Below, in pieces: positions 1 through 26,728 of a stretch of DNA of 39,844 nt. The notes under the pieces are model-generated. The model was given only the letters and a program-made list of their open reading frames with translations, was not told where the DNA came from and did not search any database. The stretch comes from Candidatus Altimarinota bacterium (GTDB taxonomy: Bacteria > Patescibacteriota > Gracilibacteria > UBA4473), in the NCBI GenBank assembly GCA_021736215.1, contig JAIPGI010000011.1, forward strand, positions 1-39,844, in the 5' to 3' direction. The position numbers were made by a program, and so were the translations under genes. Positions within the stretch are counted from its first letter, which is position 1; every line of letters starts with the position of its first letter.

Positions 1-2
1 GG

Positions 3-3000
3 TTCGGAGATTACAACGGAGCTACTAAATTCGACGGCTCAAACTGGGTATATTTCAATAGCTCTAATAGTAGTCTTATCAGTAATAGAGCTATTTCTAT
101 AGCTCAGGATCAAAATAATGTTCTGTGGTTGGCTCAGGGTATTACTTCCGGCGGTCTTTCTGCATATGATGGTAATACATGGTACTTATACAACAGCCTT
201 AATAGCGGTTTGAGCAACAGTCTTGTGTTTCGTGTTATCGTGAATCCATTCGATAACACTAAATGGATTCATACAGGAGTAGATATTTCTATATTTGACG
301 ATTATCAATGGACACATCTCAATGCCATAGATGAAAATGGTAATAATATTGGTGTAGGAGGACCATTCATTGACACTCATAATAACAAATGGTTCTGGAG
401 CTCGAATGCAGGAGCCTTTAAGTTTGATGGTCAATGGACACAATTTAATAAAACAAATAGTGGAATAATTGATAATTGGGTATTTGATATTGCCGAAGAT
501 AAAAATGGAAATATTTGGTTCGCTACCGCCACGGGAGCATCTAAATTCGATGGAAATAATTGGGAAAATTTTGATATCCAAAATAGTCCCATTTCCACAT
601 ATTTATTTTCTGTAGAAGTGGATGTAAATGGTGATATCTGGTTTGGAAGTGTGAATCAAATACATCGATTCCAATCTCCCCAACCTCAACCCACTTCTAT
701 TTTATCAATCAAAGTATCTGGTTCATCTCTCATTAAGAGGGTAGCCATTTCCTCATCCAAAGAATTTGATGAGATAGGCACTCAATCAGAAGAGATGTTA
801 CGCACAGTTGAAATAGGACAAGACAATACGGCTTATTTCAGTGAAGAAATAATTCAAGATTTTGGAAATAATATTCAACGCCTTGATCTTCTTACTGAAA
901 ATAACCAACTTATGGGACACATCCTCTTCGAGTTTAAGCAAGAAGACCTTCAAAATGGAAAGACCATTGATCTCTTCCTACGACTTCATCCTGATCTTTC
1001 AACCAATAGACTCGATTATCCTGGGTGGGAGTATTACAGTGATACTTATGTAGAATGGCCTACCTCTATGTTAATTGCTCCACAGAATTCTTTTGACTCC
1101 ATAAAAACTGATCAGAAGCCAATACTTCTTGTGCACGGGGTTTCTGGATCATATCCCTATTGGTACGACACTCCAAAACAACTGGAAACAAGCAACCAAT
1201 ATGATATTTGGCAGTTTTATTATCCTTACGATGGAGAAATCGAAACTTCTGGCATCATGGAGCGACGAGCTATTGATGATATTTTGGATCAAAACATTAC
1301 AAATCAACAGTACTCTGTTTTTCGTGTTTCTGTGGTTGCTCACAGTATGGGTGGCCTTGTAACCCGTTCCTATATTCAAAGTTTGAATGGAGGAGAAAGT
1401 AGAATCAATAAATTCATGATGTTAGGGACACCAAATAATGGGTCGTATAGTGCGTATCGTATTTACTATACTCATATGCCAGATGAATTTGGATTTCTTT
1501 TTGGAAGTAATAAAGATGATCAAGCACCTGCCTATTTACAGATGACATCTGGAAGTAGTTTTTTAACTTCTTTGAACAAAGAACAACTATCTCAAAGTCT
1601 TTCAACTTTAGTAGTTGCTGGGACTCAAGATTTTTCACTTGGAATTCCTCATAATGAAATTTTAAACCAAGATGATGGTTTGGTATCGGTATCTAGTGCT
1701 AGTTTATTAAATTATCCAATTCCCTTATCTATTACTCCACTTACACATACTTTTACAAATCGGAATTTAACTAATTCATCTTCTAATATCGTTATGAATT
1801 TCCTTTCTGATTCCTACTCTTTTGAAACTTTCGCACAACTACCCGAAATTACTGGTGCTTGGAAAAATTCTATCGATCCCCCACTCAAAGTGCCTACAGA
1901 GAACTTTGATACTGAAAAAGGAATGTTGGTTTTTTCCATTGATGGAAGTCATCAAGAAAAGCTTTTTCTTCAAGAAAATGGGGATGGAGATATTAAACTT
2001 TCTCATCATCATTTTACGCAAGGCATCTATCAACTTCAAAAAGTTCCAAAAACAGATAATTACTTTGGTCTCAATACTAGCGGTCTCAATGACCTCGGCA
2101 TTGGATTTACTGAAGGAAGTCACGACTTAATATTCCAATATTATGACAGGTATCTTTCTCGTTGGATTAAATATAAAAAATCAGATTTGGAATTTCACTA
2201 TCTTCAAACAAACATGAAAGATCTTATCCTTTCCGATGGCGAATTAGCCATTCTCAATTCTGAAAACGAATTACAAACTGGCAGCAACAATTCACTCGCC
2301 TTTGCAAAAACAAACTCTATTTCCAATATTCAAGAGAATATCAAAACCTACATCATTGATGGAGCAACTACTGGAGCCGTGTTTCTAATTAATGCTGAAA
2401 CTGGGGAAAATAATTTCAGTCAACATAATATGAAATTGGTTTCTCCGAGTGGCAGAGAAATTGACCCAGTCGTTGCATCCACTGATCCAAACATCGAATT
2501 CAAGGAAGATGTTACAGAGGGATTTGCTTTTTATTATATAGCAAATCCCGAAATAGGAACATGGACACTCCAAACCAATGAAGCCGTTCAAACAGTCACG
2601 AGTGTGCCAATAGTCAGCCAAGCAAGTGTCAATATTTCCGTGACAACTGGAAACTATTTCACTGGAGATCAAATTCCCTTCTCTGTGACAACTTCTGCAA
2701 ATACTTCTAATCCAAGCCTGAATGTATCAGTCCAAAAGCAAAATGGTTCAATATGGACTTCGGTTGGAAATGCTTCTATAAGCGCCGTAAATGACACTTC
2801 CTTCACTGGGGACGCTGTCGTAGGTCTACAAGGAACATATCGCCTACAGGCGAATCTCACAGGAGAATTAAATGGAGAATCTTTCACGAGAATTGACATC
2901 TCTGAATCGTTCTGGGTACAACAACTCGTTCTTCCCGAAATCAGAGTGGATATTTCTCTAGAAAATTCCGTCTTTTATCTCGGTGATACAGCAACCTGCA

Positions 3001-4178
3001 ATATCACAATATCAGGAGATTACAATAATCCTGATGTGACATTTTCTGTATGGAAAAAAGACAGCTTAGGTGTATGGAGAGACTTTGATGATGGAGTAGT
3101 AACTCGTTTAAATTCTACTCATTATAAAGGACAATTCATTGCTTTAGAAATTGGAGAATACCGATTTCGAGTAGAAGCTACTGATATTGTTGATGGATAC
3201 TCTGTACAGGATAGTGATTATGAATTATTCAATGTTATTTCATTACCCGAAATTTTATTATCGTTATCAATACCTGACTCTTCTCTTTATGCAGGAGATT
3301 CTACTCTTTGTACGATTCTACTAATCCCAAGTTGTGAAAATCCAATGTTTGTCTTCTTTATTCAGAAACAAAACACTGTAGACGATGATATCCTTGTTTG
3401 GGAAAATAAAGATACATTGGAAGTAGAAACGATAAACGACACTCTGTTTACGGTAAAATTTGCTCTTGCTAATACGGGAATCTATCGCATCCAAGCAGAG
3501 ATTACTTGTACCATAGATGGAAAGGAATTGGGCACAGAGGATTCTCTTTCATTTTCAGTTATTCCACTTCCTCCAATGCAATTATTTCTTTCTATGGTCG
3601 ATTCAGTGTTTTATCAAAGCGATACAATTTCTTGTAAGATTGTGTTTTCTGGAATCCTCGAATCTCCACAACTAAATCTCTCGCTCTGGAAATATAACGA
3701 GGATAGTTGGAATAGTATTCAAGTGATACAGACAATATCTATCGATGATACGACCTTTATCGGATCATTTATAAGTGCTGATACTGGAAGTTATCAATTC
3801 AAAGCATTCTTGAGTGGTTTGGTGGATGAACATTTGCAGCAAGTATCAGATTCTTTATTTTTCTTGGTACTGCCTGATACGATAACTACTGGAGTCTCTT
3901 CTCAGAACATTCCACAAGAATTTTCCCTGAAGCAAAATTATCCCAATCCATTTAATCCTTCGACAATCATCGAATATTCCATTCCCACCCAAAGCCATGT
4001 GGAACTAAAAATATTCAATATTCTCGGACAAGAAGTACTGACACTTGTAAATGGGATAAAGGAAATTGGAAATTATAAAGTCTTTCTCGATATGACACGA
4101 TACCCATCCGGTGTATATGTTTATCAGATAAGGGCTAGCAATTTCCGAGAAGTGAAAAAACTTCTCTTCATCAAATAA
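3..4178 (+). CDS. Large exported protein: propeller + serine hydrolase + Ig repeats + T9SS sorting domain (5' partial)
   Basis: The frame is open to the left edge, so the gene starts outside the window; a TTG at 129 is not its start. The first ~220 visible residues hold propeller-type repeats of the form KFDGxxW...F followed by D-x-N-G-x-I-W-F (two-component-regulator propeller type). A hydrolase domain follows (nt ~1110-1760): LLVHG oxyanion-type motif, nucleophile elbow AHSMGGL with Ser codon 1344-1346, a likely Asp in NQDDG (~1665-1680) and His codon 1746-1748, as in lipase/PGAP1-like esterases. Four Ig-like repeats (~2620-3890) each begin near a Y-x-G/S-D-x-x motif. The last ~80 residues (from ~3925) contain NYPNPFNPST, FNILGQEV and YPSGVYVYQI, the hallmark of the type A C-terminal domain that directs type IX secretion in Bacteroidota and relatives. 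No T9SS machinery lies in this window, and such a domain is unexpected beside patescibacterial-like genes. Confidence 0.9.
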   Translation, partial: FGDYNGATKFDGSNWVYFNSSNSSLISNRAISIAQDQNNVLWLAQGITSGGLSAYDGNTWYLYNSLNSGLSNSLVFRVIVNPFDNTKWIHTGVDISIFDDYQWTHLNAIDENGNNIGVGGPFIDTHNNKWFWSSNAGAFKFDGQWTQFNKTNSGIIDNWVFDIAEDKNGNIWFATATGASKFDGNNWENFDIQNSPISTYLFSVEVDVNGDIWFGSVNQIHRFQSPQPQPTSILSIKVSGSSLIKRVAISSSKEFDEIGTQSEEMLRTVEIGQDNTAYFSEEIIQDFGNNIQRLDLLTENNQLMGHILFEFKQEDLQNGKTIDLFLRLHPDLSTNRLDYPGWEYYSDTYVEWPTSMLIAPQNSFDSIKTDQKPILLVHGVSGSYPYWYDTPKQLETSNQYDIWQFYYPYDGEIETSGIMERRAIDDILDQNITNQQYSVFRVSVVAHSMGGLVTRSYIQSLNGGESRINKFMMLGTPNNGSYSAYRIYYTHMPDEFGFLFGSNKDDQAPAYLQMTSGSSFLTSLNKEQLSQSLSTLVVAGTQDFSLGIPHNEILNQDDGLVSVSSASLLNYPIPLSITPLTHTFTNRNLTNSSSNIVMNFLSDSYSFETFAQLPEITGAWKNSIDPPLKVPTENFDTEKGMLVFSIDGSHQEKLFLQENGDGDIKLSHHHFTQGIYQLQKVPKTDNYFGLNTSGLNDLGIGFTEGSHDLIFQYYDRYLSRWIKYKKSDLEFHYLQTNMKDLILSDGELAILNSENELQTGSNNSLAFAKTNSISNIQENIKTYIIDGATTGAVFLINAETGENNFSQHNMKLVSPSGREIDPVVASTDPNIEFKEDVTEGFAFYYIANPEIGTWTLQTNEAVQTVTSVPIVSQASVNISVTTGNYFTGDQIPFSVTTSANTSNPSLNVSVQKQNGSIWTSVGNASISAVNDTSFTGDAVVGLQGTYRLQANLTGELNGESFTRIDISESFWVQQLVLPEIRVDISLENSVFYLGDTATCNITISGDYNNPDVTFSVWKKDSLGVWRDFDDGVVTRLNSTHYKGQFIALEIGEYRFRVEATDIVDGYSVQDSDYELFNVISLPEILLSLSIPDSSLYAGDSTLCTILLIPSCENPMFVFFIQKQNTVDDDILVWENKDTLEVETINDTLFTVKFALANTGIYRIQAEITCTIDGKELGTEDSLSFSVIPLPPMQLFLSMVDSVFYQSDTISCKIVFSGILESPQLNLSLWKYNEDSWNSIQVIQTISIDDTTFIGSFISADTGSYQFKAFLSGLVDEHLQQVSDSLFFLVLPDTITTGVSSQNIPQEFSLKQNYPNPFNPSTIIEYSIPTQSHVELKIFNILGQEVLTLVNGIKEIGNYKVFLDMTRYPSGVYVYQIRASNFREVKKLLFIK

Positions 4179-4253: not shown

Positions 4254-4290
4254 AAAACCCTGGTTGTTTTGCAATCAGGGTTTTTCTCTT
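4254..4290 (+). terminator. Rho-independent terminator of the T9SS-type gene
   Basis: A 13-bp stem (4254-4266 with 4272-4284, one G-T pair) closes a 5-nt loop and runs into a T-rich tail (TTTTTCTCTT). It lies 75 bases after the stop of the upstream gene. Confidence 0.85.
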
Positions 4291-4316: not shown

Positions 4317-4865
4317 ATGCAGATTCAAGAATCTTCTCTCTCTCTCTCTCTCTCTAATTTTACTTTCTCCCAACGAGTTAAGTTTATGGTGAAAACGCTT
4401 TTGTGGTTGGCATATATATTTTTAATAATGTTTTTACTTAATATAAATATAGAAAAACCATTGGTAGGATTTTTGCATCCCTACTTTGCAATTTCCTTCT
4501 CTGCTTTTTGTGTAATGTTTCATTACATAACAAAAATTTTATTTAAAAATACAAAATATTTTACATACAAACTGATAGCTAGAGATATTCTTGTACTATT
4601 ATCGATATTTCTCGCTTATAACATATTTGTTATAGAATCCGTAAAATACTCAGGATGGCCGTGGGGTAATAGCGAACTAAAATTATTTATCTCACTTGTA
4701 ATAGAAGTTTTGATAGGACTCGTAATTTTTGTTAGACTATTAAACATCCTCATTCAAAAACATCTAACAAATAGAATAGTATACAATCAACATTCTTTTG
4801 CTCTTGGCGCTCTATTATCAATATTAACTTCTGTTTTCTACTTTATTTATGAAAACTTTATTTAA
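4317..4865 (+). CDS. Polytopic membrane protein, first of a tandem pair, with TC-repeat near its start
   Basis: A 182-residue unrecognised integral membrane protein with about four to five hydrophobic helices separated by short basic loops. Residues 6-13 alternate Ser and Leu because the DNA is a TC dinucleotide run. The ATG at 4317 follows a -10-like TAGAAT by 6 bases; an in-frame ATG at 4386 (residue 24, just before the first helix) would omit the repeat. The end overlaps the next gene by 17 bases. The protein resembles that neighbour along its length: MQI(Q/R)(E/D)S start, a central RD(I/F)L motif, and a C-terminal YN(Q/R) then hydrophobic then IY segment. This points to a tandem duplication. 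The region is clearly more AT-rich than its surroundings. Function unknown. Confidence 0.75.
   Translation: MQIQESSLSLSLSNFTFSQRVKFMVKTLLWLAYIFLIMFLLNINIEKPLVGFLHPYFAISFSAFCVMFHYITKILFKNTKYFTYKLIARDILVLLSIFLAYNIFVIESVKYSGWPWGNSELKLFISLVIEVLIGLVIFVRLLNILIQKHLTNRIVYNQHSFALGALLSILTSVFYFIYENFI
4335..4355 (+). repeat. (TC)10 microsatellite inside the coding start
   Basis: Ten uninterrupted TC units (4335-4354) plus a final T lie at codons 7-13 of the membrane-protein gene. Gain or loss of a unit shifts the reading frame, which is the layout of a phase-variable switch. Confidence 0.9.
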
Positions 4866-5382
4866 AATGCAAATAAGAGACTCGTTATTTTCACAGAAAA
4901 TTCTTCAAAAAGAAAACAAAACTATTCTTTTTTTCTTTAGCATATTGGTAATATTTCTTTTATTTAATTATTTTTCATTTTTGAACATTATAAGCACTCA
5001 TTTTTTAATACCATTAGTATTATGTTGTACGCTACTTCAATTTTTAAGTTGGAATTTTTTCGTAAAAACCGAACACCCTAAATTTAAAATTTTTTTCAGA
5101 GATTTTTTGATTTCTATTTCAATTGCATCATCATTTATTTTTTTTATAAGAAAATCTATCAGTGGACATGGAGGAGAACTAGGAGATATCGTTTATGGAT
5201 TCTATTTTTTGTATCTACTTGTAATTCTAGGAGGATGGTTAATGGTTGGAAGACCGATTTTGAGTTTCCATCAATACACGAAGTATAAAATAATCATCTA
5301 CAATCGCTACACACCTGCTATATGGGCTGTAGTACTTACTATTTTGACATTTGCTCAAGCAATATATCAGAAAATTACATAG
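4849..5382 (+). CDS. Polytopic membrane protein, second of a tandem pair
   Basis: A 177-residue unrecognised membrane protein with about five hydrophobic segments. It overlaps the previous gene by 17 bases, so the two are probably translated from one message. A second in-frame ATG at 4867 gives an N-terminus (MQIRDS) that aligns with that of the neighbour (MQIQES), so 4867 may be the real start. It ends about 107 bases before the convergent giant gene. Composition is very AT-rich, partly because of Phe, Ile and Leu codons. No catalytic motif is visible. Small paired integral membrane proteins of this kind could be transport, immunity or envelope proteins; the sequence does not decide. Confidence 0.75.
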   Translation: MKTLFKMQIRDSLFSQKILQKENKTILFFFSILVIFLLFNYFSFLNIISTHFLIPLVLCCTLLQFLSWNFFVKTEHPKFKIFFRDFLISISIASSFIFFIRKSISGHGGELGDIVYGFYFLYLLVILGGWLMVGRPILSFHQYTKYKIIIYNRYTPAIWAVVLTILTFAQAIYQKIT

Positions 5383-5489: not shown

Positions 5490-8400
5490 CTATTGTAATT
5501 CTAGAAGCGGAACACTGCTTTCGGTAACCCCCATTCCAAACTCTCCTACGACTTTTCCTCCAGTCACCAACTCAAACACCACTGGGTCGATTTTTTCTAT
5601 GGCACGTTTCATCTGCAAAGAAACATCTGCTCCATCCAATATATAAAAATCACCACGAGCGTCGAGTACTCCAAGCGTCATAGCTGTCTGAGTATCAATA
5701 AGTGCTACCCCGCCATGAATAAATGGAGCTTCGTAGGGCAAATCTCGAAAAGTATACCCATCCTGACTTTCAATGTCTCGCACCCATACATTGTTCTGGG
5801 GGATTTCTGACCCCGATGAGAGTATTTGTACATCATTAACGTCGCTTTGTTCAAAAGACACATATGCCAACGTCTCCCCCCTCTCGTCATGGATAAGGAG
5901 TCTCAGAGGATGTTCTTCTGTTGCCGCCTGTACTACAAATCCTAGACGATCATCCATTACCATTGGACGACCATTGGAAAGAATCTCTACAACGGTACTT
6001 TCTTCTTTATTTTTTATTTCTACGCCCCCAGAAGTATTGAGTTCCGAAAATTGGAAGTTTCCTTCCTCCCCCGAGAGGACCGGATCATTAGAAACCAATC
6101 CTTCACCACTCCCCTCCCTCATTCGTTCCCCATATAGAGGAACTTCTGACGTTCCATCTTTTACTTTTCCAACAATGGATTTGTCTCTTTCAGAGGCCTC
6201 ATACAGTGATATCTGTGGAACCGAAACTGTCATGACAATATCCTGACTGGATATATTCCCTGCCTCGTCCTCAACATTGAGTGTTACCGTAAATTCTCCC
6301 GTTAATTCGTATGCTGGCAACTTTACATTGAGAAGTGATCTAACATTTTCCATTGAAGGAGCAAAATCCTTATCGTTTTTATAATTTTCATCCCCATCAC
6401 TATCTTTTTCTGGATACAAATCCCACCATACGCTTTTGATTTCTTGATCGTCGTATGTCTGTGTCGCGTCAACTAAAACCTTTTGGAACACATTGGTTTG
6501 TATATTTGTTCCCCCCTTTATGGAAATATTCGGAGGAGTCGTATCATCAGAAAGCTGTGGATCATGGAGAAATTTTGGGATGAAGAAACTTTTTCCATCC
6601 CGTCCAAAAGCCTGAAACCATCCATAATGATTCCCGAGTGGAATATTTTTCAGGAAATCTACTAACATTTGTTCTGATTCAAAATAGTGAATCGAATATT
6701 TCTCATTTCCCAGAACCTTAACAAGTGTTCCATCAAATAATTGTATTTCGAGAGCATCATTGGGGCCAAGCTCGAATCGAGCCCCTTCTGGTAAGTAGAG
6801 ATTTCTTCTTGGATCCATTTTTTCTAATTCTTCAGTAGAAACTCTTTCCACCGCTCCCCGTGTCAAACATACTTCTGCATACTCCACCATAGTTTCTTCC
6901 CCTGCATGCAATACTATTTCTCGGAATTCTTCCTCCTGTCCAGGACGAGGTGGAACTCGAATTTCCATTCGAGAATTATCTTTGAGTCCCACTAATATCG
7001 ATTCTGTGGCATAAAATGGTTTTTCTGTACTTGGATTTTCACAGTCTTGCTGCGTCAGGAGAGGAATTTCTTCGGGAGGGGAAGCGTAAAGAATCGGACT
7101 TCCAGTAATAGATTTTACTCTTGTTGTCATGGGTCGAATTTCATATTTTTTGGATTTCTTTCTTACGAGAAATGCATTTCTATCCCACAGTTTTGATTTC
7201 CTATCCTCTAATTTACTCTGTATTTCAAACACGACATCCGGTCTTTCACTTATCCCCCATTCAAAGTAAGAGATATCATCCCATATTCTTTTGAATTCTC
7301 CAGAGAATCCTTGTATTGATGTTTCTGAATTCAATGATTGAACAGGAGCAAACTGTTCTTTGAATTTTTCCCATGTCCATTCATAAAGAACACTCTGACG
7401 ATCCTCATAATCTTCACTATATCGTTCTTCATATCGATTGGCACGAGCATCTTGTTCTTCTGTACTTTGTGTCGGGACAACTCTATATTTCAAATACAAT
7501 TCATCATTGAGACTATAAAGGATTTCTCTCTCTCCATCCTGTCCTTGAATATCCGCGAACCAATAGGCATATCGTGAAGGGATTGGGAATTGTGTTACTT
7601 TTTCGTACGTTTCAGTAGCTCCATCAAAATAATAGATAGCAGGATCTTGTTGCATCTGTGCTTGTTCTGTTTCAAATTTCTCAACATCAAATCCTTCTGG
7701 AAGTGATGTTGGAACCAATCCGACATCAATAGTTGAAACAAGCCAACGACCAAATCGCGTTGATGCGATAGAAGATATTAATGGACTTGAAAAATGGGGC
7801 ACAAGTGATCCAAATGCAGATGCCACTAGCTCTTTTGTTTCTGTCGTTATAAGTCCCCCGCCCTTACTTTGTGCAAGTAAAAATTGGATTTGTTCCTGAG
7901 ATTGTTTCACGAATTCCTCTTGTTCCCTTTCAAGAGACGCGTGACGCGATAGTTTATCTAAATCTATGCTTTGAGTTCGTATTGTATAATGAGGAGTTTT
8001 CGAAAAATTTTCAGACGGTAGAAAAAACGCTGAAGTTGGGGTATCTATCTTCGTTGCCTTGCTAATTTCTGCAATGGTTTCATTGGAAATCTGTGCCAAT
8101 TTATCTACTTGTTGAAGTGATTCAAGTGTTGCGATAAATGAGTTTTCTATTTTTACGGTTATATCCGAAGAACCACTCGATGAACCATCAGAAGAAGTGC
8201 TCAACGAAGGAAGTGTTAGTGCCGCTCCAGAAAAATCTAATCCAAAGAGTTTTGATCTATTTGTGATCTGAGACACATAGGCTTTGACATGCCATTCTGG
8301 GACAGGAGCAATCCCCATAACCAAGAGACACGTCAGTTTTAAAAATGCTTTTGGTATTTGAACAATAGCTTCTATAGGAGAGAGGATATTTGGGATCTTT

Positions 8401-11400
8401 GGCGGAGAAGGAATTGTTGGCAAGGGTGGCAAAGAAAGAGTTGGTAAATCAAAATCCAAGGACAACTTGGGCATAACAGGAAGTTTTGGCAACTTCGGCA
8501 ATAGTGGAAAGAGCGCTAAATATTTTGAAAGATTCGGTACAGTTAAAGAAATGTTCGAAAGCCCTGATATTGAACTAAGTGGTGGAAATTTAAATGGCGG
8601 CAACATATCCGGTAAGGAAAAAATATCAAGTTGTACCGGTTCAAATACAATCTCCGGAATAACAATTTCATTTCCGAATGTTAATCCCGAAAAATCCAAA
8701 TTCACATTGGGAAGTTTTGGAGGCTGAATAACAGGAAAATCCACCCCACTCAAGAGAATCCTCAAAAGCCATTCGTGCATTGTCCCCCTATCCACAGAAC
8801 AGCTCGGACAACTGATACTGAAATTTTGAAAAATCTTAGGAATTGCCTCCCATGATCGAAGAATACTCTTGAATACCAAACGGAATTGTCCCCATCGTTC
8901 TACTGCTTTTTCTGTAGATTTCATCCAATTTGAGAAATAATCTGATGTTATTTCTGATTGCTGAACTATCGTTTCTACAGATTTTTCTATTTTAGCTGGG
9001 ATTTCTTTAAGAGAAACTACTGATATATCGTATCCTTCCACCGCGGAAATATTCTTTTCAATGTTGAGAAGCATCTCATCTGCGTTCTTTAAGTATTCTT
9101 CAGCCGCTACTTTTATTTCCAGATTTTCTGAATAATTTTCGATCTTGCTGACAGCATCTTCACGCCAAACTTTGTATTGATTTTTCCATTCTTTGTACTC
9201 ATCTTTCATCCCTTGAACATCGTCCTTTGTAACACTAGGATAAGAAATAGTTACCTTCCTTCGTTTGATATCTACAAAAGGAGAATGTGTTGCTTTTTGA
9301 AATATATCGCCTCCTTCGCGAAGCGCTGTTTCTGTCTCATCTTGAGAAGATGTTTCAGGAAATTTAATATCAATAATTGGCATTTTGATATTCGAAAGAG
9401 CTTCATATTGCTTATCAAGCCATCTTGTTACAATATCAGCAGATTCAATACTCTTATTTGTAATTTCGAATTTTACTTTTGGAATGAAGCTCGATTCATT
9501 TTCATCTTTCCCAAAAGACATTCCCCCCACCCCCGAATTTGGATTGGACGAACAAACTCCCAATGCTCCAAGAATTGAAGGCGCAACCACAAAACAAGTT
9601 GGGATAAACACAGGTGGTACCATATTCACCGGATACGACCCGAGACAAATTCCTAGACCTACTGCCCCCGTGGTCGTGGGCATTACATACATCCTAAAGA
9701 AAGAATTAAATGGCCCTTCAATATATTGTTTCCCAATAGGTGATCCTGGCCACAAAAATGGAATTGGTCCAACTGGTGTATAGAGTGTGGTCGGAAATGC
9801 CAAGACCGGAAATCCTGGATCAAATCCCCCTGGAAACCCCAGTGGCGGTGCATATATGGTTTCTGATCCTGGTGCCAAAAACGTCTTGGAGATAATAGGA
9901 AGCCCACATCCTCCACCACAAGAAGTACTATTGAGAGTATTAACAAGCATCATAAGTCCCGCATCAACTCCTCCTTCAGTCGCTGATGATTCGTACATAT
10001 CTGGATACCCATCGCCATCGGAATCTGTTTTAAGAGGTGCCAAAAGTTCATCAGCAACTTCCGTATCGGATGCACTACTCACAAAATCATCAACTGTCGG
10101 TATTGTTAGAGAAGAAATATCCAATATTTCCAATATATGTGGAGGAGCTTCAAATTTAGCGATTTTCCTCATATCATCTTCTTTGAAAGGAATGAGAATA
10201 TCGTCCAGTGTATCCCCCCGAAAATAGTCATCAACAAAATACTTAATAGGAGGCAACTCTCCTACTGTCATTTTCCATTCTAAAAGGACTTTCTCATGAT
10301 CGGAGATTCCCCCACCCCGTATTAAAGTTTCTCCGTTACACAGAGGAACCTCTTGAACGGGATCCTGAGAACACCCTTGGCAAGATATGCTCTTTTTTTC
10401 TAGATTTAATCCTGCGAAATGAGGAATCACTATTTGAAGGTTCTCTAAATCACTATCACTTTCGATGGTTAGACGAAGATCAATAGAAGTTCCGGGAAGA
10501 AGCGTTTGTTCTTCTGACGACTGACCAAAATCAACAGTTGCATTGATTCTATTATTCCGAGAGAGTGGAACAAATGATCTTTCGGGACTTGTTTCTGAAC
10601 AGAAATAATCTTCCTCCCCATCACTTTTTATCTCATCCTCTAGTCCACCATAATCAATCAAAAATTCCGATAAATATTTATATTTATTGGGATCTATATA
10701 CTCATCTTCTGGTTTTTGATTTTCAGAAACATTGTACGTTTCCGTAATTTCCCCAAGAGAAGAAGCAAAACAGTATATTTTTTGGGGGACTCCAAATCCA
10801 TTTTCTATCCCCAAAATTTTCCAAAGACAATTATCACTATCTAGAACGACAAGATCTCTGTACATATCACCATCTAGTTGTGCTCCTTGAATTTCAGAAA
10901 TCCCTTTCTCTAGTCCTAAATCTATATTCTCTCGAGCGTACGTTCCATTGATATTTTTGTGAACAATTGTTTTTCCAGCATCATTCACTTGAAGCAAATC
11001 ACTAAACTCGTCTCGATCATTATCAAATGCAACAAGAGCTTTTGCCCCATCTCCAAAACGCAGGATTGGTCCAGTGCTTCGGAAATTATCATTCTCCATA
11101 TCATCTTGATAGAGTGCAAATAGCAAATTCCCTACACGAGCAAATATATCTTCATACCCATCCCCATTAATATCTCCGTTTAGAATCTGATCGATAGGAC
11201 CATCTTTGCTTTTCCACAATTGCTTTCCGATGTCTTCGGTAAGGTTGAGGTTTACTTTTGGATTTTCCGTAGCAACAGTGAGTGTCGGATCTCCGAGCAA
11301 TATAAAAGCATCACTTGCCGCCCACTGAGTAGAAAGCCCAATTGAATTTCCTGCAGAAAAATATGTACCTGGTTTCCATTCGTCTTCCCATACGATACCA

Positions 11401-14400
11401 AGTTCCTTGGTTGTTGCGTCTTCTGCTGATTTTTTAGAAGATCCGAGAATTTTGTTAACACTTTCTTTTTCTTCGGGATTCACAAAGAAAATTCCCTGAG
11501 GATTATTTGTGGAAAATCCAGTGAATCCCTTCTGAAGTTGAATATCAAAAGCATTTTTTTGTACCACTATTCCCGACTCATCCCCTTGATTTTCAAAATC
11601 ATCTACAATCGATATGTTTGTTTTGTCTAGAACAAAATAAAGTGTTCCTACTATTGTTTCCGATTTTTTAACCTTCCAAATGAATATCGATTGATTCTCC
11701 GATGTGAGCGTCATATCTCCCACTTGGAAATGAATTCCTCCCTGACTAGAGAGCGTTAATAATGGCTGATTGAAATAAGAAATCGTTTTCCCACTCTGAG
11801 TAAAATCCTGTGCAAGTGATGCCTCTGGAACAAAATACAAGCCTTCTCTTTTTCCGACGGATGATGTGATTTGTAATTCTGGTTCTGTTCCAAAATGAAG
11901 TTGAGCCGTAGCCAAAGATTTATTTCCAGAAAAGAGTTCCACCGTAGCCATATCAGCAAAACGAAATTCTCCCATAATATCCGATGAAATTTCTCCTGTT
12001 GCGCTCAAAAATCCAAATCTACTTTCCGGATTTGGATTGGTCATAAGTGTTCCAATAGCTTGAGACTTCCCAGAAAAAAGATACGCATTTCCCACGTTTT
12101 GACCTCGGACCATATCCCCTCCCTCAAACCCGAGCATCAGTGTAAAAAGTGTTTGTGGTGTAAGCGCACGCAATTCTGAAATCGTAAAATACTGCGTTAC
12201 ATCAAAATCAGTAACAGCAGGGGTTAATGCCTCGCTTTCGGTGGTAAGATATACTTCTCCATTTGAAGTTCGTGGGGACACTGTTACTCTTTTTTTTCCA
12301 TTTTGTAATTGCACCGTTTCACCTTCTTTTATAGTAATAATGGTATTCGGAGAAGATGAAATTCCAAGTCCTGCTTGTCCTTCTAGGTAGAGCTGTTCTC
12401 GCCCGCCACTACTGATAACGTCCAAACTCTTGAGTTGGTCAATATCTTCTGAAGTAATTCCCTTCGTTTCATTAATCTTGAAAGAAATATCAGAAGAAAA
12501 ATCTTGAACCGTATTTCCATACGTATCTATAACTTCCATATCGAGATTAAGTTTTTCTCTTCCATCTTTATTGAGTATTTTTCTGTCTGGAGAAAGTAAT
12601 ATTTTTTGTGCTGTTCCTGGTAAAATCGTTATGTTAAACGGACTACTCGAGAATCCTGGCGAAGCTAACCTGAATGTTGCTTTCCCCGCACGCATTCCAG
12701 AACGTATTTGAAATTCTCCAAGTCCATCACGAAGTGTAAATTTGGAGGGAGCCTCTCCTATTCCTCCTGGTTCATTAATAATTCCAACATCAAATGTGCC
12801 TGTAATTTTCTTTCCATCGGACGCTTCCCCCCAAACAAGAACGTTCACAGGAGTATCATCTTCTACAGAAATAATGTCTTGAGAAATTTCTGTTCGGAGT
12901 ATTCCATTTTTGAGAATAACAAATTCCTGTGTCGATAGTTTTTCTTTTCCAAGAGTATCTGACCAAACTTGAAGTTTTGCTATTTTTGCCTCTGACTGAG
13001 GACGAATCGAAAGAATTCCCGCTCCTGATACTTGTGTTTCGAGGGAAGAAGTTTGTGTTCCCTGAATTTCCAATCCCTCTCCAGACCAAGAGAGTGTCTG
13101 AGGGATATCTTTAATACGGTTTCCAAATTTATCCTCCAAAAGGACTTTGAGGGAAGAAAATTGTTGAGTTCTTACCAAATAGGGAGAATCTACATCAAAT
13201 TCTAAATTATCTGGAATATCTGGAATAATATCCAAGTGTACATGATACTCTGGTAATTCTTTTTCTTGATCCTGTAGGACAATATCTGCCTTTCCTGCAC
13301 GTTCTCCTGGAAAAAATAAAATTTCTGCCGCCCCCTTCTCAAGTACCGTGACATTGTTTTTTTCAAAAGTCCCCCATTGGGAAGAAAATTGTATTTGCTT
13401 CCCATCATAAGAAGAGACAATATTTCCATTTTCTCGAAGCTGTATCTTTAGACGAACGCCCTCTTTCTTCCCCGCAACAACCTCTCCATCCTCTGCAAAT
13501 CCAGAAAAAGCGAACTTACTCACCTGAACAGGAATTTCTGATGATTTTATATTTTTTATCTGGGCAAAAATTGAAAATTTTCCTCCCACATTGTTTTCTT
13601 TCGGAAAGAGATAAAATTTTGCTTTTCCTGCTACAACTTTCTGAGACACAGATGGTTGTATTGTGAAAAATTTTTCTGCATCCGAACTAGAGAATTTCAA
13701 ATTCACTTCTGAATCAAAATCTGAAAACACTGGTCGCCCCGCTTTATTGAGTGATACGACCTCAATGGCAATAGGATTTACTTCTTGCGCCGATATGCGA
13801 ATACTAGAAGGAGTAATTTTTAAAGCGGAGACTTCATCAAGTGATGTTTTTTCTAAAAAAGGAGAGTTTACAATAGGAGCTGATCCATCTTCGGGAAAGA
13901 ATGATCGAATTGGTTTTTGGGCATTGGCTTTCGTTTGTTCAGCATAACACTGAATTTGTGAAACAAAATCATCACTTGCACATTGACTCTCTATTTGCTC
14001 TTTCCCGAGGAATGTTTTTTCAAAATCCTCTCCCAAGAATGTTTGTATCGTTTTTTCTCCTTGCTGAAATTCATTTGCTGTTCTTTGTGTTGACAAAAAG
14101 GCCTCCTCGTTGGGATCTACTCCCTGCTCAAAAACCATCTGAAATCCGTTATCAGAAATAACGTCTGCTTCAGCTTTTTCTCCCAATATTTCTACAAATT
14201 CATATCCATGAAAAGCATCATCAAAGAAAAATTTCTGAGCTTCTTCCAGGGGACCAAATGCTTTTTCAAACACTTCTCTATTTTTTTCATCAAGAGATTT
14301 ATCAATCCAAATAATATTATCAACGACTCGATCAAGATCGTAGGAATTCACAACTCCCTCAAGAAGACTTTCTGAAATTACGGCTCCTGTTTCATAGAAG

Positions 14401-16703
14401 CGCACTATCTTTTCTTGAGGAGTAATAGTATCCAATAGCATCGGAACTGGAGGAATCCCAACAAGTCCCCACTTGGTCCATGTGCAAGACTCATCCCAGT
14501 CGATACGAGTTGTAAAACTATCAGGATGAGTAGTTGACTTCGTATATTCCCGACAAATATCTTCATCGATAGGCACTCCCATGTCATCGTAACACCCGTA
14601 TCCCACAGGAGGTTGACACTTCGTTCCTGGCCAATCTAACGGAGTATCTGCACTGAGTCTTGCATTACTCACTGTGTTTCCAGCCTGCGTCAAAGAATTT
14701 ATTTCTTGAATTTTTTGCTGAAGCTGGTTTTGGATGTATGCCTTAAGAAGAATTTTGCGTTCAGGTTCGGACGCATCCATGTAGAGTTCTCGAAGATTAA
14801 ATACATTGAAGTAATCCAATCTATGAAAATTTTTCGCGTGATCATAAAACGAAAACCCTCGCGGATCATCCACGGGGAGACTCATTGTCGACATTGACTC
14901 AACCTGAGCTGTCAAAGTTTCAGGACGTGGTTCATTGTGGATCATGAGAGAATCAAATCTCTGTGCCACATCTGGATCCTCATCGAATGTATCTATGATA
15001 GATGAACACCCCTTGGATCCTTGATTCCCTTCTGTTTTCTCAGTGGTTCCCGCATAAGAAAAAACTGGGAGTTCCGCTCCTCGATGTTTACTTAAATCAA
15101 TCCATTGCGATCCCGTATTACAGGTATCGTACGAATACGAAAAGGTATTAGAATCAACCTTAAGATTGAGAGCACAACATCCCGCATATTGGTCTGCATC
15201 TTTTTCGTCTTGAGAAGCACTTGAATGTTCGCAAAGTGGTGACTGGAAACTAGATTGCGCCGTCCGTACATCATAGGTACGATTCGCTTCTACCATTTGC
15301 GAATAGGGATATGAGGTATCTCTCGGACTTCCTCTCAAAAGAGAACAATCTTCACTATCCATACTGCTTCGGGAGACTCCGTTCCAAAAGAGTGGTTTTC
15401 CATAAGGTTGTAAAACCGTTTCTGCAAAAAGAGCATCCGTTGTATCGGGTACCGAAATATTTTCGGAAATATTTTTTTCCACAAGCTGTGCATTAAGCGA
15501 ACTCTCTATATTGTCGTTTATACTTTTAAGAAAAAGTCCTGCCGCCTCATCCTTGCGGGAAACAAGAGAAATTGTTGTATCAATGTCTTTGGGATCCCAC
15601 CGATCTGCCACTCCAACCATAGAATTTACCTGCGAAAGATATTGTCCCCACGCTTCAAAATACCTTTTGAGTAAATTTTCTATGGGATATTTTGTTTGTA
15701 CATCCGGCATTTTTATGGCATCCCCAGCCATATTAGGAAGTTCGCTCGGAGCAACATTTTCTGGTAATAATCCGAGGGGGATTGCTTCATTAAACTGGGC
15801 ATCAAGTAACAAATCAGCAAACCAATATTTATTGAACCTCAGGTATATAGCGTCTTCTAAGTGGAGAATATAATTTTCATAACGTTTTTTCATTTCCTCA
15901 TTCATGCCTTCCTTTTGGCGGGGTAAATCCATATAAAACACTTTCTTTCCAAAGGATTCTGTTCCCTGATGAACTGCATGATTCGCATCAAAATACGCCA
16001 CATACTGGTCTTCTCGAATGTCTGCTAAATCATCTTCATCATAACCCTCCCCTGTCCCGATATCTGATCGTATCAGTCCATGCCAAATCTCTGGTTCTTC
16101 ATCACCTCCCCCTTGATACACAAATCTATTTTTCTGTGTGTCCCAAAAGTAAGAAGGTTTTTCAAAATCCGTATAGGGATATATAGTTGGCCAAAGATTC
16201 TCATTTTTTTCGATAATCGGAAGAGGGACTTCTCCGATAAGGATCGTTCCAATAAGCTGTGATTTTCCATCATTTTCAAGTCCCGAAAAATACAAAGCGG
16301 CATTCCCTTCGTAAATATCTAATGGAGATGCATCACGAGGAATCGGAATAAAAACAACTTTCCCGTCAGTTTTTTCTTGAACATCCCGAGCGTATCTTTG
16401 AATTTTGGATTCAAGGGTGTTATTTCGGAGAAGCGAATCCTCCACGAGAATCGATATTAATTTGAGTCGTTCCACAGGAGGAACTGTTGTTTTATTTTTT
16501 TCTGATAAAAAATCTAAAAAAGCCGCTTGAACCGTCGACTGAAAGCTGAACAATACAAAAACCCATAATAATACAACAGAAAAGAATTTTTTCGCTCCTC
16601 CCCTCTTTGTTATTCCCAACACAGGTTGCAGGAATCTAAAACTTAAAAACCTGTCAAGCCAATGACACTGTGGATTGTTTTCTTTTTTTAAGTAAAAAAG
16701 CAT
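5490..16703 (-). CDS. Giant secreted multidomain protein (~3740 aa)
   Basis: An unrecognised giant exported protein. A signal peptide is clear: a basic segment with GGAKK, then a ~17-residue hydrophobic core and a VQA cleavage site. The start is uncertain. ATG at 16703 is used here; TTG at 16763 (20 residues longer) and GTG at 16622 (which would give an ideal 34-residue signal peptide) are alternatives. Along the chain (approximate residues): two Cys-rich stretches (450-565 and 690-745); several Ig/invasin-like beta repeats (960-1450); an FG-GAP-like stretch with D-x-N-G-D-G-x-x-D calcium loops (1830-1950); a D-S-D-G-D-G-x-x-D loop (~2225); a Gly/Pro-rich Cys-containing hydrophobic region (2260-2400); a helical region; a Pro-Leu-rich tract (2730-2775); a FecR-like beta region (~3235-3335); and a PKD/Ig-like module with another acidic loop (~3390-3500). 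No C-terminal anchor or sorting motif is evident. It closes a minus-strand cluster with a VirB6-like protein and is probably a surface-exposed or extracellular structural component. Confidence 0.85.
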   Translation of the reverse strand: MLFYLKKENNPQCHWLDRFLSFRFLQPVLGITKRGGAKKFFSVVLLWVFVLFSFQSTVQAAFLDFLSEKNKTTVPPVERLKLISILVEDSLLRNNTLESKIQRYARDVQEKTDGKVVFIPIPRDASPLDIYEGNAALYFSGLENDGKSQLIGTILIGEVPLPIIEKNENLWPTIYPYTDFEKPSYFWDTQKNRFVYQGGGDEEPEIWHGLIRSDIGTGEGYDEDDLADIREDQYVAYFDANHAVHQGTESFGKKVFYMDLPRQKEGMNEEMKKRYENYILHLEDAIYLRFNKYWFADLLLDAQFNEAIPLGLLPENVAPSELPNMAGDAIKMPDVQTKYPIENLLKRYFEAWGQYLSQVNSMVGVADRWDPKDIDTTISLVSRKDEAAGLFLKSINDNIESSLNAQLVEKNISENISVPDTTDALFAETVLQPYGKPLFWNGVSRSSMDSEDCSLLRGSPRDTSYPYSQMVEANRTYDVRTAQSSFQSPLCEHSSASQDEKDADQYAGCCALNLKVDSNTFSYSYDTCNTGSQWIDLSKHRGAELPVFSYAGTTEKTEGNQGSKGCSSIIDTFDEDPDVAQRFDSLMIHNEPRPETLTAQVESMSTMSLPVDDPRGFSFYDHAKNFHRLDYFNVFNLRELYMDASEPERKILLKAYIQNQLQQKIQEINSLTQAGNTVSNARLSADTPLDWPGTKCQPPVGYGCYDDMGVPIDEDICREYTKSTTHPDSFTTRIDWDESCTWTKWGLVGIPPVPMLLDTITPQEKIVRFYETGAVISESLLEGVVNSYDLDRVVDNIIWIDKSLDEKNREVFEKAFGPLEEAQKFFFDDAFHGYEFVEILGEKAEADVISDNGFQMVFEQGVDPNEEAFLSTQRTANEFQQGEKTIQTFLGEDFEKTFLGKEQIESQCASDDFVSQIQCYAEQTKANAQKPIRSFFPEDGSAPIVNSPFLEKTSLDEVSALKITPSSIRISAQEVNPIAIEVVSLNKAGRPVFSDFDSEVNLKFSSSDAEKFFTIQPSVSQKVVAGKAKFYLFPKENNVGGKFSIFAQIKNIKSSEIPVQVSKFAFSGFAEDGEVVAGKKEGVRLKIQLRENGNIVSSYDGKQIQFSSQWGTFEKNNVTVLEKGAAEILFFPGERAGKADIVLQDQEKELPEYHVHLDIIPDIPDNLEFDVDSPYLVRTQQFSSLKVLLEDKFGNRIKDIPQTLSWSGEGLEIQGTQTSSLETQVSGAGILSIRPQSEAKIAKLQVWSDTLGKEKLSTQEFVILKNGILRTEISQDIISVEDDTPVNVLVWGEASDGKKITGTFDVGIINEPGGIGEAPSKFTLRDGLGEFQIRSGMRAGKATFRLASPGFSSSPFNITILPGTAQKILLSPDRKILNKDGREKLNLDMEVIDTYGNTVQDFSSDISFKINETKGITSEDIDQLKSLDVISSGGREQLYLEGQAGLGISSSPNTIITIKEGETVQLQNGKKRVTVSPRTSNGEVYLTTESEALTPAVTDFDVTQYFTISELRALTPQTLFTLMLGFEGGDMVRGQNVGNAYLFSGKSQAIGTLMTNPNPESRFGFLSATGEISSDIMGEFRFADMATVELFSGNKSLATAQLHFGTEPELQITSSVGKREGLYFVPEASLAQDFTQSGKTISYFNQPLLTLSSQGGIHFQVGDMTLTSENQSIFIWKVKKSETIVGTLYFVLDKTNISIVDDFENQGDESGIVVQKNAFDIQLQKGFTGFSTNNPQGIFFVNPEEKESVNKILGSSKKSAEDATTKELGIVWEDEWKPGTYFSAGNSIGLSTQWAASDAFILLGDPTLTVATENPKVNLNLTEDIGKQLWKSKDGPIDQILNGDINGDGYEDIFARVGNLLFALYQDDMENDNFRSTGPILRFGDGAKALVAFDNDRDEFSDLLQVNDAGKTIVHKNINGTYARENIDLGLEKGISEIQGAQLDGDMYRDLVVLDSDNCLWKILGIENGFGVPQKIYCFASSLGEITETYNVSENQKPEDEYIDPNKYKYLSEFLIDYGGLEDEIKSDGEEDYFCSETSPERSFVPLSRNNRINATVDFGQSSEEQTLLPGTSIDLRLTIESDSDLENLQIVIPHFAGLNLEKKSISCQGCSQDPVQEVPLCNGETLIRGGGISDHEKVLLEWKMTVGELPPIKYFVDDYFRGDTLDDILIPFKEDDMRKIAKFEAPPHILEILDISSLTIPTVDDFVSSASDTEVADELLAPLKTDSDGDGYPDMYESSATEGGVDAGLMMLVNTLNSTSCGGGCGLPIISKTFLAPGSETIYAPPLGFPGGFDPGFPVLAFPTTLYTPVGPIPFLWPGSPIGKQYIEGPFNSFFRMYVMPTTTGAVGLGICLGSYPVNMVPPVFIPTCFVVAPSILGALGVCSSNPNSGVGGMSFGKDENESSFIPKVKFEITNKSIESADIVTRWLDKQYEALSNIKMPIIDIKFPETSSQDETETALREGGDIFQKATHSPFVDIKRRKVTISYPSVTKDDVQGMKDEYKEWKNQYKVWREDAVSKIENYSENLEIKVAAEEYLKNADEMLLNIEKNISAVEGYDISVVSLKEIPAKIEKSVETIVQQSEITSDYFSNWMKSTEKAVERWGQFRLVFKSILRSWEAIPKIFQNFSISCPSCSVDRGTMHEWLLRILLSGVDFPVIQPPKLPNVNLDFSGLTFGNEIVIPEIVFEPVQLDIFSLPDMLPPFKFPPLSSISGLSNISLTVPNLSKYLALFPLLPKLPKLPVMPKLSLDFDLPTLSLPPLPTIPSPPKIPNILSPIEAIVQIPKAFLKLTCLLVMGIAPVPEWHVKAYVSQITNRSKLFGLDFSGAALTLPSLSTSSDGSSSGSSDITVKIENSFIATLESLQQVDKLAQISNETIAEISKATKIDTPTSAFFLPSENFSKTPHYTIRTQSIDLDKLSRHASLEREQEEFVKQSQEQIQFLLAQSKGGGLITTETKELVASAFGSLVPHFSSPLISSIASTRFGRWLVSTIDVGLVPTSLPEGFDVEKFETEQAQMQQDPAIYYFDGATETYEKVTQFPIPSRYAYWFADIQGQDGEREILYSLNDELYLKYRVVPTQSTEEQDARANRYEERYSEDYEDRQSVLYEWTWEKFKEQFAPVQSLNSETSIQGFSGEFKRIWDDISYFEWGISERPDVVFEIQSKLEDRKSKLWDRNAFLVRKKSKKYEIRPMTTRVKSITGSPILYASPPEEIPLLTQQDCENPSTEKPFYATESILVGLKDNSRMEIRVPPRPGQEEEFREIVLHAGEETMVEYAEVCLTRGAVERVSTEELEKMDPRRNLYLPEGARFELGPNDALEIQLFDGTLVKVLGNEKYSIHYFESEQMLVDFLKNIPLGNHYGWFQAFGRDGKSFFIPKFLHDPQLSDDTTPPNISIKGGTNIQTNVFQKVLVDATQTYDDQEIKSVWWDLYPEKDSDGDENYKNDKDFAPSMENVRSLLNVKLPAYELTGEFTVTLNVEDEAGNISSQDIVMTVSVPQISLYEASERDKSIVGKVKDGTSEVPLYGERMREGSGEGLVSNDPVLSGEEGNFQFSELNTSGGVEIKNKEESTVVEILSNGRPMVMDDRLGFVVQAATEEHPLRLLIHDERGETLAYVSFEQSDVNDVQILSSGSEIPQNNVWVRDIESQDGYTFRDLPYEAPFIHGGVALIDTQTAMTLGVLDARGDFYILDGADVSLQMKRAIEKIDPVVFELVTGGKVVGEFGMGVTESSVPLLELQ

Positions 16704-16820
16704 TCCTGAAAATTGTGGGTTTGTTTTCTTTTGTATTTTGCCTTTTTGATGCAAAAAACTCAAACAAGTTTCTTACTTATTCTCAATATAAAATTAACAG
16801 TTCCTCGGAATAATGTTTTA

Positions 16821-19800
16821 TTACGCTGCTAGAGAATATCCTGCACTCACTCCTCCATGTTCGGAACAGTATCTATTGAGAGCTTCTTCCAGTGCTGTTG
16901 TATTAGTAAAGTATTTTTGTGTACCTTGTTCTCGAGCGAGAAGATTTTGGACTTTTTCTCCATATTGATTTTTATATTCTTGTGATGCTTCTCGATCGGT
17001 CCAGTTTGCCCCATACTTATCTGCTAAACTAAGATCCAAAAGTTCATAATAAGCTTTATCTTCACCTTTCTGATCAAACAGATTCTTCATAAATGAATTA
17101 ATTTTCTGTTTATTAGGTTCTGCCTTGATGGCATATCCAGACTCCGTATCCCAATCGTGCTTAGTAAAAATAGCCGTATTATTTCGTTTGAGTCCTGCAA
17201 AATTTCCTTGTAATGTTTGGGTTGCGGTAAGCGAAACCTTGAGATTGTATCCCACATCCAGAAGGTGCTTTCGTTTCGCCTTGAGCCAATCTGGATTATT
17301 GCCCCATGTTTGATCTCCTACTTCGATCAAATGTTTTTTATGCTTCATATACATGTCGAATCCTGATAACCAACTACGCCAGAAGTCTGGTGATTCTTTC
17401 TTTTTCTGCACAGAATCCAATGTAAGTGCCTCGTTTACTTGATCTTGTGTCCAAGCGGCTTGATAGTTGACCCCATCATCATGATCGGGTTGATCAAAAA
17501 ATCGTCCCATACGTTGTACACGCTGGACCGTGTCGGGACACTCGTTAATTACTTCGTAGAAAAATGTTTCTGTATTGGATCGTATAGATGTGTTGTTTTT
17601 GAAGTCGTATGTGCCATTTCCGCTTCCCAACATATCTTTCCATGCTTCATAATCGGTAAAATTCCATGGCCTTACCTGTCCAAGCCCTGCAGGAACAATT
17701 CTTCCATTTTTTTTGGGAGCTCCTTTATCTACCAAGAATTCAGAATGTGGAAATCGTGCCAAGAAATCATCTCCGATACGCGTCATAATTTCTCGCGAGA
17801 GAATAGGTTTTCCAGTGCTTGGATTTTTGACCGTTAATCCCATGACGAAGTAATACCATCGAGCATCTGGTTGTCCGTTCATTTTTCCTAAACGGAACGC
17901 TTCGAAAAGGAAAGCTTCGTATTTTGCGGGATCGACATCGGTCGCATCGCCCTTTTCCCATCGCTGAAGCATTCCCGAGAGAATGGCAATACGCGGTTTG
18001 TCATCGTTTTCATAGAGGGCGAATTCGCGAGCATGACCGTCTTTGACTTTTTTAAGATCGTCCCCGAGCGAAATATCCCATTTCCGATACACATCTGCGT
18101 TCCAAAGTGGAGCACAGGCTGCTTTTACCTTCTCTTTAATTTCAAAGAGACTTAAATACTGATCTTCTGGAATATTAAACGTGACAATATTTTGTACCCG
18201 CATTAGAGCTCTCCATACCGACGGACTATCCCACTGCAAAAATCCTTTTTCTTTCATGAGATTAAAAATTGCACGCATTTCATCTGGGTTTGATGTGCGT
18301 TCCAATACGTCTTCAAGCACCCATCCATCATAATCTCCATACTGAGTCTCAAATTCCTTGACTCGTTGTCCCTCAGATTCTTCTCCCATTCGTTTAAATT
18401 CTTTTCCGAAGTAATTATCTGTTCCAAAAAATTTCATACCCATGGCCGAAACCGCTTTGTCAGATTTTCGTTTCCAATTGGTTTCATTCGCCTGAATACC
18501 TTGTTTGATAGTAGCGTATATATCATAGAGCGAAAAAGATTGTGTACTCCAAACTTTTTTCTTAGCCCCAGCATCTGCTCTATAGTCGTCGAGCCATTTT
18601 GAGAGGGATTTTGATTGTCCTTCTGCTTTTTCTGCCGTCGCTGTAACAATTTCCCATTTTCCCAACTGTTCAAGTTTTTCTAGTTTTTTTTCTGGATCAT
18701 CCCCCTTATATCCATTCATCCAATCCTGAATAAACTGAGGGTCATTAAATTCCCTCCAAATACCTTCAAATTGTTCATTCTGTGCACTATGATCTCGCAT
18801 AACATTCTCTGCTTGAGCTTTGCTGAGTTTATATTTTTGGAAAAAACGTTCATCTTCCAGTTTATCAATATCCATATCAATAATTCTTTTGATGCGATTC
18901 ATATGCTGAGAATAGCTAGAAAAATGTGCTCGAAATTTATCCTGTACTGCTTTAAACCTTTCCTCAAACTCATCTGGTTTCTCATAATATTCATTTTCTT
19001 TCAGTACCTGTAACCCCTTGGAAGGAGCTTCAAATTTCTCCGTAATACGATTGGCCATTTCTGCCCAAAATCCATCACGAAAATCCGAGAAACGTTTCAG
19101 AAGATTCAGATCTTTTACGAGTGCCTGCAAATATCCTGGATTTTTCAGGATATCATCAAATGTTTCCACTTGATCAAAAATATCATTCAGACGAGTCATC
19201 ATTCCCTCACATGCTTTAAAAAATCCTTCTAAGAATGCATCTACTTGAGGACTCGTCCCAAATACCGATCGACATTCTTCTTTCATTTGTTCCAGACGAA
19301 GCGGAATTTCTTTTTTTGCGATTTGCCAACTCGGGATTATTTCATTCTCCCATTGCATAGCTAAATCTTTCCTCTTGGAGAGATATTTTGGATCATCTGA
19401 TTTGAGTAATTCAATTCCTTGGGATATTTCTGGAAACGTTCCTGTGAATTTATAAATGTGGTTATTTATAGCTTCTCGGATATCACGAGTCATAAGTACG
19501 GCTTGTGCCAATTTTTTCTTTCCAGGAATAAATATTTCTTTCCCATCAATATCTATTGCGCGCCCATTTTCAAAAGATATTTTTGAATACTCAAAAACTT
19601 CCTGAAGAGACTTCTTTTCTCGAACATCCGATTCTTTTTCATCATCAAGCCCTAACCCATCAACAACAGCGTCATATTCTTTCTTTTGATCTTCTATTTT
19701 TTTATCAGCACTGATCATCACTTGATTGTAGAATTCTCGTCCTGAATATTGATTTTGTACTTCCTGAACGGAATCGATATGACTGTGTAATCGCTCCCAA

Positions 19801-21971: not shown

Positions 21972-21981
21972 GTGTCTAAGC

Positions 21982-21990
21982 ATTATAGCA
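21982..21990 (-). promoter_or_regulatory. Extended -10 promoter before the 1716-aa gene
   Basis: TGCTATAAT on the minus strand, 10 bases before the ATG at 21971. No good -35 is seen, which an extended -10 can tolerate. Transcription from here would give a leader of only a few bases. Confidence 0.55.
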
Positions 21991-22055
21991 TAAACAAGCC
22001 CTTTCTCCTAGATTGATGGGGTAGTTTTGGCTTTACCCAAATTGTGAAATATTTT

Positions 22056-22064
22056 ATTATAACA
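22056..22064 (-). promoter_or_regulatory. Possible second extended -10 upstream of the 1716-aa gene
   Basis: TGTTATAAT on the minus strand in the 180-bp gap between the VirB6-like and 1716-aa genes. It would give a leader of roughly 75-80 bases holding a GGAGAAAGG purine tract. The -35 match is weak. Confidence 0.3.
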
Positions 22065-22151
22065 AACACTGTTTTTTCAGGAAAGTCCTATGAAAAAGGA
22101 AAACGTTGTCAAATACCATTTTTAAACTAGGTGAATAGTATTTTTTAACTC

Positions 22152-24449: not shown

Positions 24450-24460
24450 AAAATCTTGTT

Positions 24461-24489
24461 ATTATACATCAAATAAGCGTTGAAATCAA
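24461..24489 (-). promoter_or_regulatory. Promoter of the VirB6/TrbL-like gene
   Basis: TTGATT (24484-24489), 17-bp spacer, TATAAT (24461-24466), then 11 bases to the ATG at 24449. The predicted leader is about 4-5 bases. Confidence 0.65.
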
Positions 24490-24516
24490 TACGAAATCCT
24501 GAATTTTTGATCTTTG

Positions 24517-26727: not shown

Positions 26728-26728
26728 T

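Follow-up and report, generated by a model that had tools for sequence, protein, structure and literature searches.

A type IX secretion sorting domain on a probably imported hydrolase of a patescibacterium with no detectable SprA or Omp85

The stretch analysed here (the window) is the complete 39,844-base contig JAIPGI010000011.1 (C15) of a Candidatus Altimarinota bacterium, and its first gene encodes a large protein with, in order, a Sec signal peptide, a propeller, a PGAP1-like hydrolase, four repeats and a type A sorting domain (hereafter the tail) of the type IX secretion system (T9SS). The genome (G000) amounts to 1,010,508 bases in 17 contigs, is 93.4% complete and 0.45% contaminated and uses the standard genetic code; from its 1.01 Mb size, the absent outer-membrane marker and the UGA recoding known from its class, we infer that the host belongs to a Gracilibacteria-like class of the phylum Patescibacteria. 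The best reading of our data, to which we give a probability of about 0.8, is that secreted proteins of the Fibrobacteres-Chlorobi-Bacteroidetes (FCB) group have been gained recurrently by lateral transfer, tag included, and that in the recipient the tail would be a cap that is not cleaved.

The C-terminus of the window protein is a true T9SS sorting domain of type A, as the first-pass annotation of this DNA had claimed. TIGR04183 matches residues 1313-1388 with E=5.7e-11 and 42.2 bits (cut-off 23), the Pfam family Por_Secre_tail (PF18962) scores 33.7 bits (cut-off 27), and only 3 residues separate the end of the match from the stop, so that the tail is the extreme C-terminus. It carries the NYPNPFNPST and G-Y-Y motifs and a Lys-rich end, and is up to 56% identical to Ignavibacteria tails. 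With the T9SS type A proteins of Bacteroidota, Ignavibacteriota and other FCB phyla it thus shares an ~80-residue C-terminal domain above both cut-offs, the motifs and a signal peptide, but SprA and Omp85 were not found in the window genome, which leaves the tail without a machine to read it. The structural model of the tail (predicted local distance difference test score, pLDDT, 84) has seven strands. Sequence profile and fold matches relate it to T9SS substrate C-terminal domains bound in the translocon (PDB 8glj, 8glk, 8gl6, 8gl8) and to that of mirolase (8qb1): the profile search against the PDB matched 8glj with E=0.0017, and 8glk_D was among the fold matches with Z 8.2 over 75 residues and a root-mean-square deviation of 2.5. 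However, the T9SS domains appear among many immunoglobulin (Ig)-like folds and unrelated Ig-like proteins score equally, so the fold alone is indecisive and we have not taken it as proof.

The open reading frame (ORF) on the window, read from the ORF list and its translation, has no stop inside and is open at the contig edge. Its beginning lies on contig C9 of the same genome, which adds the start MKSLTILFIVFFSTLLYAQ, a Sec signal peptide recognised by eye from its hydrophobic core and one more propeller blade (Reg_prop, 2.1e-6), so that the full gene has about 1,480 codons. The first-pass annotation had also described a propeller, a serine hydrolase and Ig repeats, and the propeller, the hydrolase domain and the repeats are real, the repeats being Ig-like by eye; none of the protein's Pfam matches is to an Ig family. 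Reg_prop matches with E=4.7e-10, and PGAP1 with E=2.1e-7 and 31.4 bits against a cut-off of 24.3. A candidate triad can be read off the alignment as Ser448 (AHSMGG), Asp558 (DDG) and His582, at about nucleotides 1344, 1674 and 1746, and with both the profile score and the Ser-Asp-His set in place we predict a PGAP1-like serine hydrolase. The self-BLAST of the repeat region gave the self match alone; the repeats were confirmed by aligning the segments against shuffles, in which all 6 pairs scored 100-147 while the shuffle maxima were 43-52 and 0/300 shuffles per pair scored as high.

The first-pass annotation had proposed looking for T9SS genes in the genome; SprA and the C25 sortase family (PorU) were sought and neither was found. 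SprA (TIGR04189) was detected in none of the 145 class genomes searched, the window genome among them, and in none of 8 chosen genomes with tail matches. The built-in controls being silent, ten FCB genomes reached via tail loci were used instead, and SprA was above the cut-off in 10/10. Omp85 was likewise found in 0/145 class genomes, with 7/14 controls positive. Peptidase_C25 has no match in the window genome and 3 in the 145, two of them above the cut-off, and the sole strong one is in G120. This last genome (1.9 Mb, 350 contigs; loci L006, L050 and L061) has six tail matches and its C25 peptidase on small contigs and is probably contaminated with Bacteroidota. The T9SS translocon and Omp85 are therefore undetectable in the window genome, in searches that did not include PorV and GldK-N, and in the recipient the tail therefore cannot act as an address for type IX secretion.

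Tails are not restricted to this contig. The window genome has two in all, the second on contig C2 between genes named by eye as the proton-pyrophosphatase hppA and NAD kinase, in the same place as in the same-genus genome G001, which has a further tail gene on its contig C6. TIGR04183 matches 30/145 class genomes, the window genome included (E<=1e-3), 28 of them above the cut-off, and in 25 of these genomes the best match lies at the C-terminus; the weak matches of the other five (G095, G043, G060, G109 and G098, where it is 13 residues short of the stop) were set aside as not C-terminal. Many tail proteins of the class begin, by eye, with a signal-peptide-like sequence, and tails occur within G048 and G057, which are assembled as one contig each, with UGA-recoded genes as neighbours. 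The tail of G011 is on a contig of 7.2 kb. An even draw of 379 genomes across the phylum gave 20 genomes with a tail match, 10 above the cut-off; outside the class 5/14 are C-terminal, with at least five more families represented, while 9/14 were set aside as not C-terminal and the G198 match was judged by eye not to be a tail.

The genetic code indicates where such genes come from. UGA is a sense codon in some families of the class, where the ORFs next to the tail genes become long only if TGA is not taken as a stop. In four genomes of this kind (G048, G121, G143 and G071) eight tail-gene loci have TGA at 0/561 Gly codons, versus 402/1274 in neighbouring ORFs of 200 residues or more on the same stretches, a contrast that is understated because the neighbour set still holds zero-TGA pieces of imports. 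These eight genes, free of UGA in UGA-recoded relatives, therefore come from standard-code donors. One of them has a body that carries SprB repeats and finds matches in 73/296 genomes of the G151 phylum (Bacteroidetes). In the recoded genome G121 a UGA-free gene (L044, 1704-5984) encodes a tail protein that combines peptidase C10, I69 inhibitor, PKD and Ig domains. Some imports decay, since the tail gene of G071 (L047, 1902-6371) has two in-frame TAA and the second one of G048 (L038, 5961-9623) is in three pieces, both still being UGA-free. A ninth tail gene, in the one-contig genome G057 (L036, 5698-6657), has TGA in frame at 3/30 Gly codons versus 46/229 in its neighbours and looks native or old.

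That the gene was transferred laterally as a whole, one of the possibilities raised initially, is well supported by these UGA-free tail genes of recoded relatives and also by homologues of the window protein itself. Its body (residues 200-1286) has matches in 22/395 genomes of the Stygiobacter phylum, 4 of them long and all 4 ending in tail-like domains, so that long body homologues were found in FCB genomes only: in the 145 class genomes no long match exists outside the contigs of the window genome, just propeller pieces or one hydrolase piece of 117 residues. No close relative of the full protein was found in the genome collection, where 15 pattern matches yielded 0 confirmed. For the tail, the best 80 of at least 575 confirmed loci in the collection are FCB-group in all but two. 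Four FCB hydrolase homologues (G660, G684, G519 and G750) have a signal-peptide-like start, a PGAP1-like domain of 30-35% identity, a long C-terminal body and a sorting-type tail; they differ in that three of their tails are of another subtype (18-22% identity) and that three of the four have the triad serine replaced by Gly. The domain combination, at first considered unusual in itself, is so only in part: hydrolase, long body and tail co-occur in these homologues, while the N-terminal propeller is shown for the window protein only. The same import has happened repeatedly in the class.

An assembly join near 4180-4320 had been suspected, and a chimeric contig, or FCB material binned by mistake, could be suggested by the position of the gene at a contig edge and at a break of synteny with G001, by a genome as suspicious as G120 and by the short contig of the G011 tail. 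Against this, the last 22 bases of C9 are the first 22 of the window, this 22-mer occurs at only these two places in the genome and the reading frame continues across the overlap; contigs C9 and C15 broke within the repeats of the tail gene itself. Further bacterial genes (riboflavin and V-ATPase genes by eye) follow upstream on C9, and same-genus synteny supports the contig on the right. Moreover, the second tail gene has its syntenic site in both genomes, tails lie within one-contig genomes with recoded genes on their flanks, and the tail gene of G057 has 3 in-frame TGA of its own. From assembled contigs, no reads having been inspected, the overlap, the synteny and the relatives together indicate that the window gene is not an assembly artefact, and we consider a chimera or contamination very unlikely. 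The same can be said, with even less credence, of a host that is an FCB bacterium rather than a patescibacterium. The tail family is called exclusive to that group in a published account (PMC4737851), but a genome of 1.01 Mb at 93% completeness, with neither SprA nor Omp85 in it or in any relative searched, in a class with UGA-sense genomes and a phylum whose other members are listed at 0.6-1.4 Mb, speaks against a different lineage. Tails of full strength with signal peptides could also mean that the organism owns a real but divergent T9SS with an outer membrane; given that neither SprA nor Omp85 was found in the class, that the window genome gave no C25 match, and given the behaviour of the controls for SprA and Omp85, in searches that left aside GldK-N and PorV, we find this scarcely believable. 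Finally, the tail gene on C2 has the same site in both genomes of the genus, as an old, vertically inherited patescibacterial gene would have, but vertical inheritance is made most improbable by the patchy occurrence of C-terminal best matches (25/145), by the UGA-free copies in recoded genomes and by the failure of the class to yield any long match to the body of the window protein.

Several observations weigh against the import of an FCB protein with an idle tail. The code-based argument covers the relatives and not the window gene, because the window genome uses the standard code. The codon usage of the gene is only mildly odd, 24/1000 mixed-gene nulls being as far off (0/300 in a narrower null), and the native secA and a giant ORF are equally odd over 700 codons. 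G001 has no copy at the site of the window gene, which sits at a synteny break. The donor cannot be named because the tail tree (99 rows x 92 columns, with one of the 80 FCB tails omitted for an unknown residue) gives no resolved placement, and the fold may not have been enzymatic in the ancestor, since three of the four FCB homologues have Gly in place of the triad serine. That the tail is better conserved than the body in two cases argues against its being simply inert. In the syntenic C2 pair of G000 and G001, 57/90 residues are identical in the tail (63%) versus 136/438 in the body (31%). In G342, a 0.7 Mb genome outside the class, four secreted proteins (L154, L169, L172 and L173) combine signal peptides and one tail family with diverse bodies, several of which are not alike by BLAST; their tails share 47-59% and their bodies 21-32%, and these four tails group together (94/97) in the otherwise unresolved tail tree. 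It is possible, if tentative, that patescibacteria have kept the tail for re-use as an anchor, an adhesin or an address for T9SS-independent surface display, and the fact that it stays C-terminal in 25 of the 30 matching class genomes would agree with that. However, no protein that would read the tail was found, none having been sought, the evidence on conservation comes from one orthologous pair and one genome, the slow evolution of compact Ig folds may suffice to explain it, and copies are broken in G071 and G048. That the tail is a working address or anchor without T9SS, either in a separate patescibacterial surface-display route or in an episymbiont that passes its proteins to an FCB host whose T9SS displays them, the tail type then being a fingerprint of the host lineage, seems to us rather improbable.

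We prefer, then, recurrent lateral gain with the tail as a cap, and the fate of the protein can be proposed as follows. A patescibacterium would have gained a surface or secreted hydrolase of Bacteroidota/Ignavibacteria type with its sorting tail included. Sec would carry the protein across the single membrane, as its signal peptide suggests, and the tail would be neither threaded nor cleaved, in keeping with the failure to find SprA or a C25 sortase. Folded and Ig-like, it would probably stay in place and cap the C-terminus of an enzyme that is released or sits at the cell surface; the alpha/beta-hydrolase domain of this enzyme retains the Ser-Asp-His set and could be active. The imported gene is broken in some recipients. 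In the genus of the window, where the second gene shows higher conservation in its tail than in its body, a local role of the domain may have persisted or arisen.

The features of the window are collected in Table 1. To the right of the tail gene, 9/17 ORFs tested by tblastn against the fetched stretches of G001 match its contig C2 with the order kept and at 32-80% identity. No match in these stretches was obtained for 7/17, namely two small membrane ORFs, those of 736, 254, 176 and 388 residues and an RHS-like fragment; the tail ORF matches G001 by its C-terminal part only. In G001 the giant ORF is adjoined by a ribosomal/TPR block instead of a tail gene. This giant ORF (5490-16763, minus strand; 3757 residues) is about 50% identical in the same-genus genome, the two small hydrophobic ORFs beside the tail gene have unusual codon usage, and an RHS/YD-repeat-like fragment, seen by eye, runs off the right contig end (39360-39842, minus strand).

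Table 1. Coordinates of the tail gene, its domains and the adjoining features of the window
Feature	Position	Strand	Remarks
Overlap with right end of contig C9 (11177-11198)	1..22	+	Assembly break inside propeller repeats
FCB-type secreted hydrolase gene with T9SS type A sorting domain (P0001)	3..4178	+	3' 1391 codons; first ~88 codons on contig G000:C9 (10915-11198)
Two-component-regulator-type propeller blades	3..677	+	Reg_prop match best at residues 154-176; propeller extends onto C9; right boundary set by eye
PGAP1/lipase-like alpha/beta-hydrolase (predicted)	1098..1802	+	PGAP1 match; lipase matches in PDB; edges by eye
Four tandem ~104-residue beta-rich repeats, Ig-like by eye	2622..3875	+	Residues 874-1291
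Type A T9SS sorting domain at the C-terminus (TIGR04183/PF18962); beta sandwich of seven strands (predicted)	3906..4175	+	
Terminator-like hairpin (AAAACCCTG...CAGGGTTTT, T-rich end)	4254..4284	+	3' of tail gene; by eye
Two small hydrophobic ORFs between tail gene and conserved block	4317..5382	+	No Pfam match; no tblastn match in G001 stretches searched
Native block whose matches keep their order on G001:C2 (same genus)	5490..39280		Giant ORF, 1720-residue, 765-residue and 208-residue ORFs, NTP transferase, 160-residue ORF, dnaE, pilT, secA

The sorting domain has been described in print as confined to the FCB superphylum (PMC4737851), and it is on account of this exclusiveness that it is used as a lineage mark. 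Within the open-licence literature, subscription journals and preprints lying outside its scope, we found no report of T9SS-type tails in bacteria of the candidate phyla radiation; where type IX secretion and these bacteria are named together, the two are unconnected or the work appears to be a community or metagenome-assembled-genome study. The tail is nevertheless C-terminal in 25/145 genomes of a class that yielded SprA and Omp85 in 0/145, and annotation from the tail alone would for this reason name 'T9SS substrates' where no T9SS is found. Furthermore, UGA-free islands in UGA-recoded genomes provide a code-based clock for the import of genes from neighbours of the FCB group, and the pattern suggests that these symbionts have FCB bacteria as hosts or partners. 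Whether the tail has any effect without its machine has now become a testable question.

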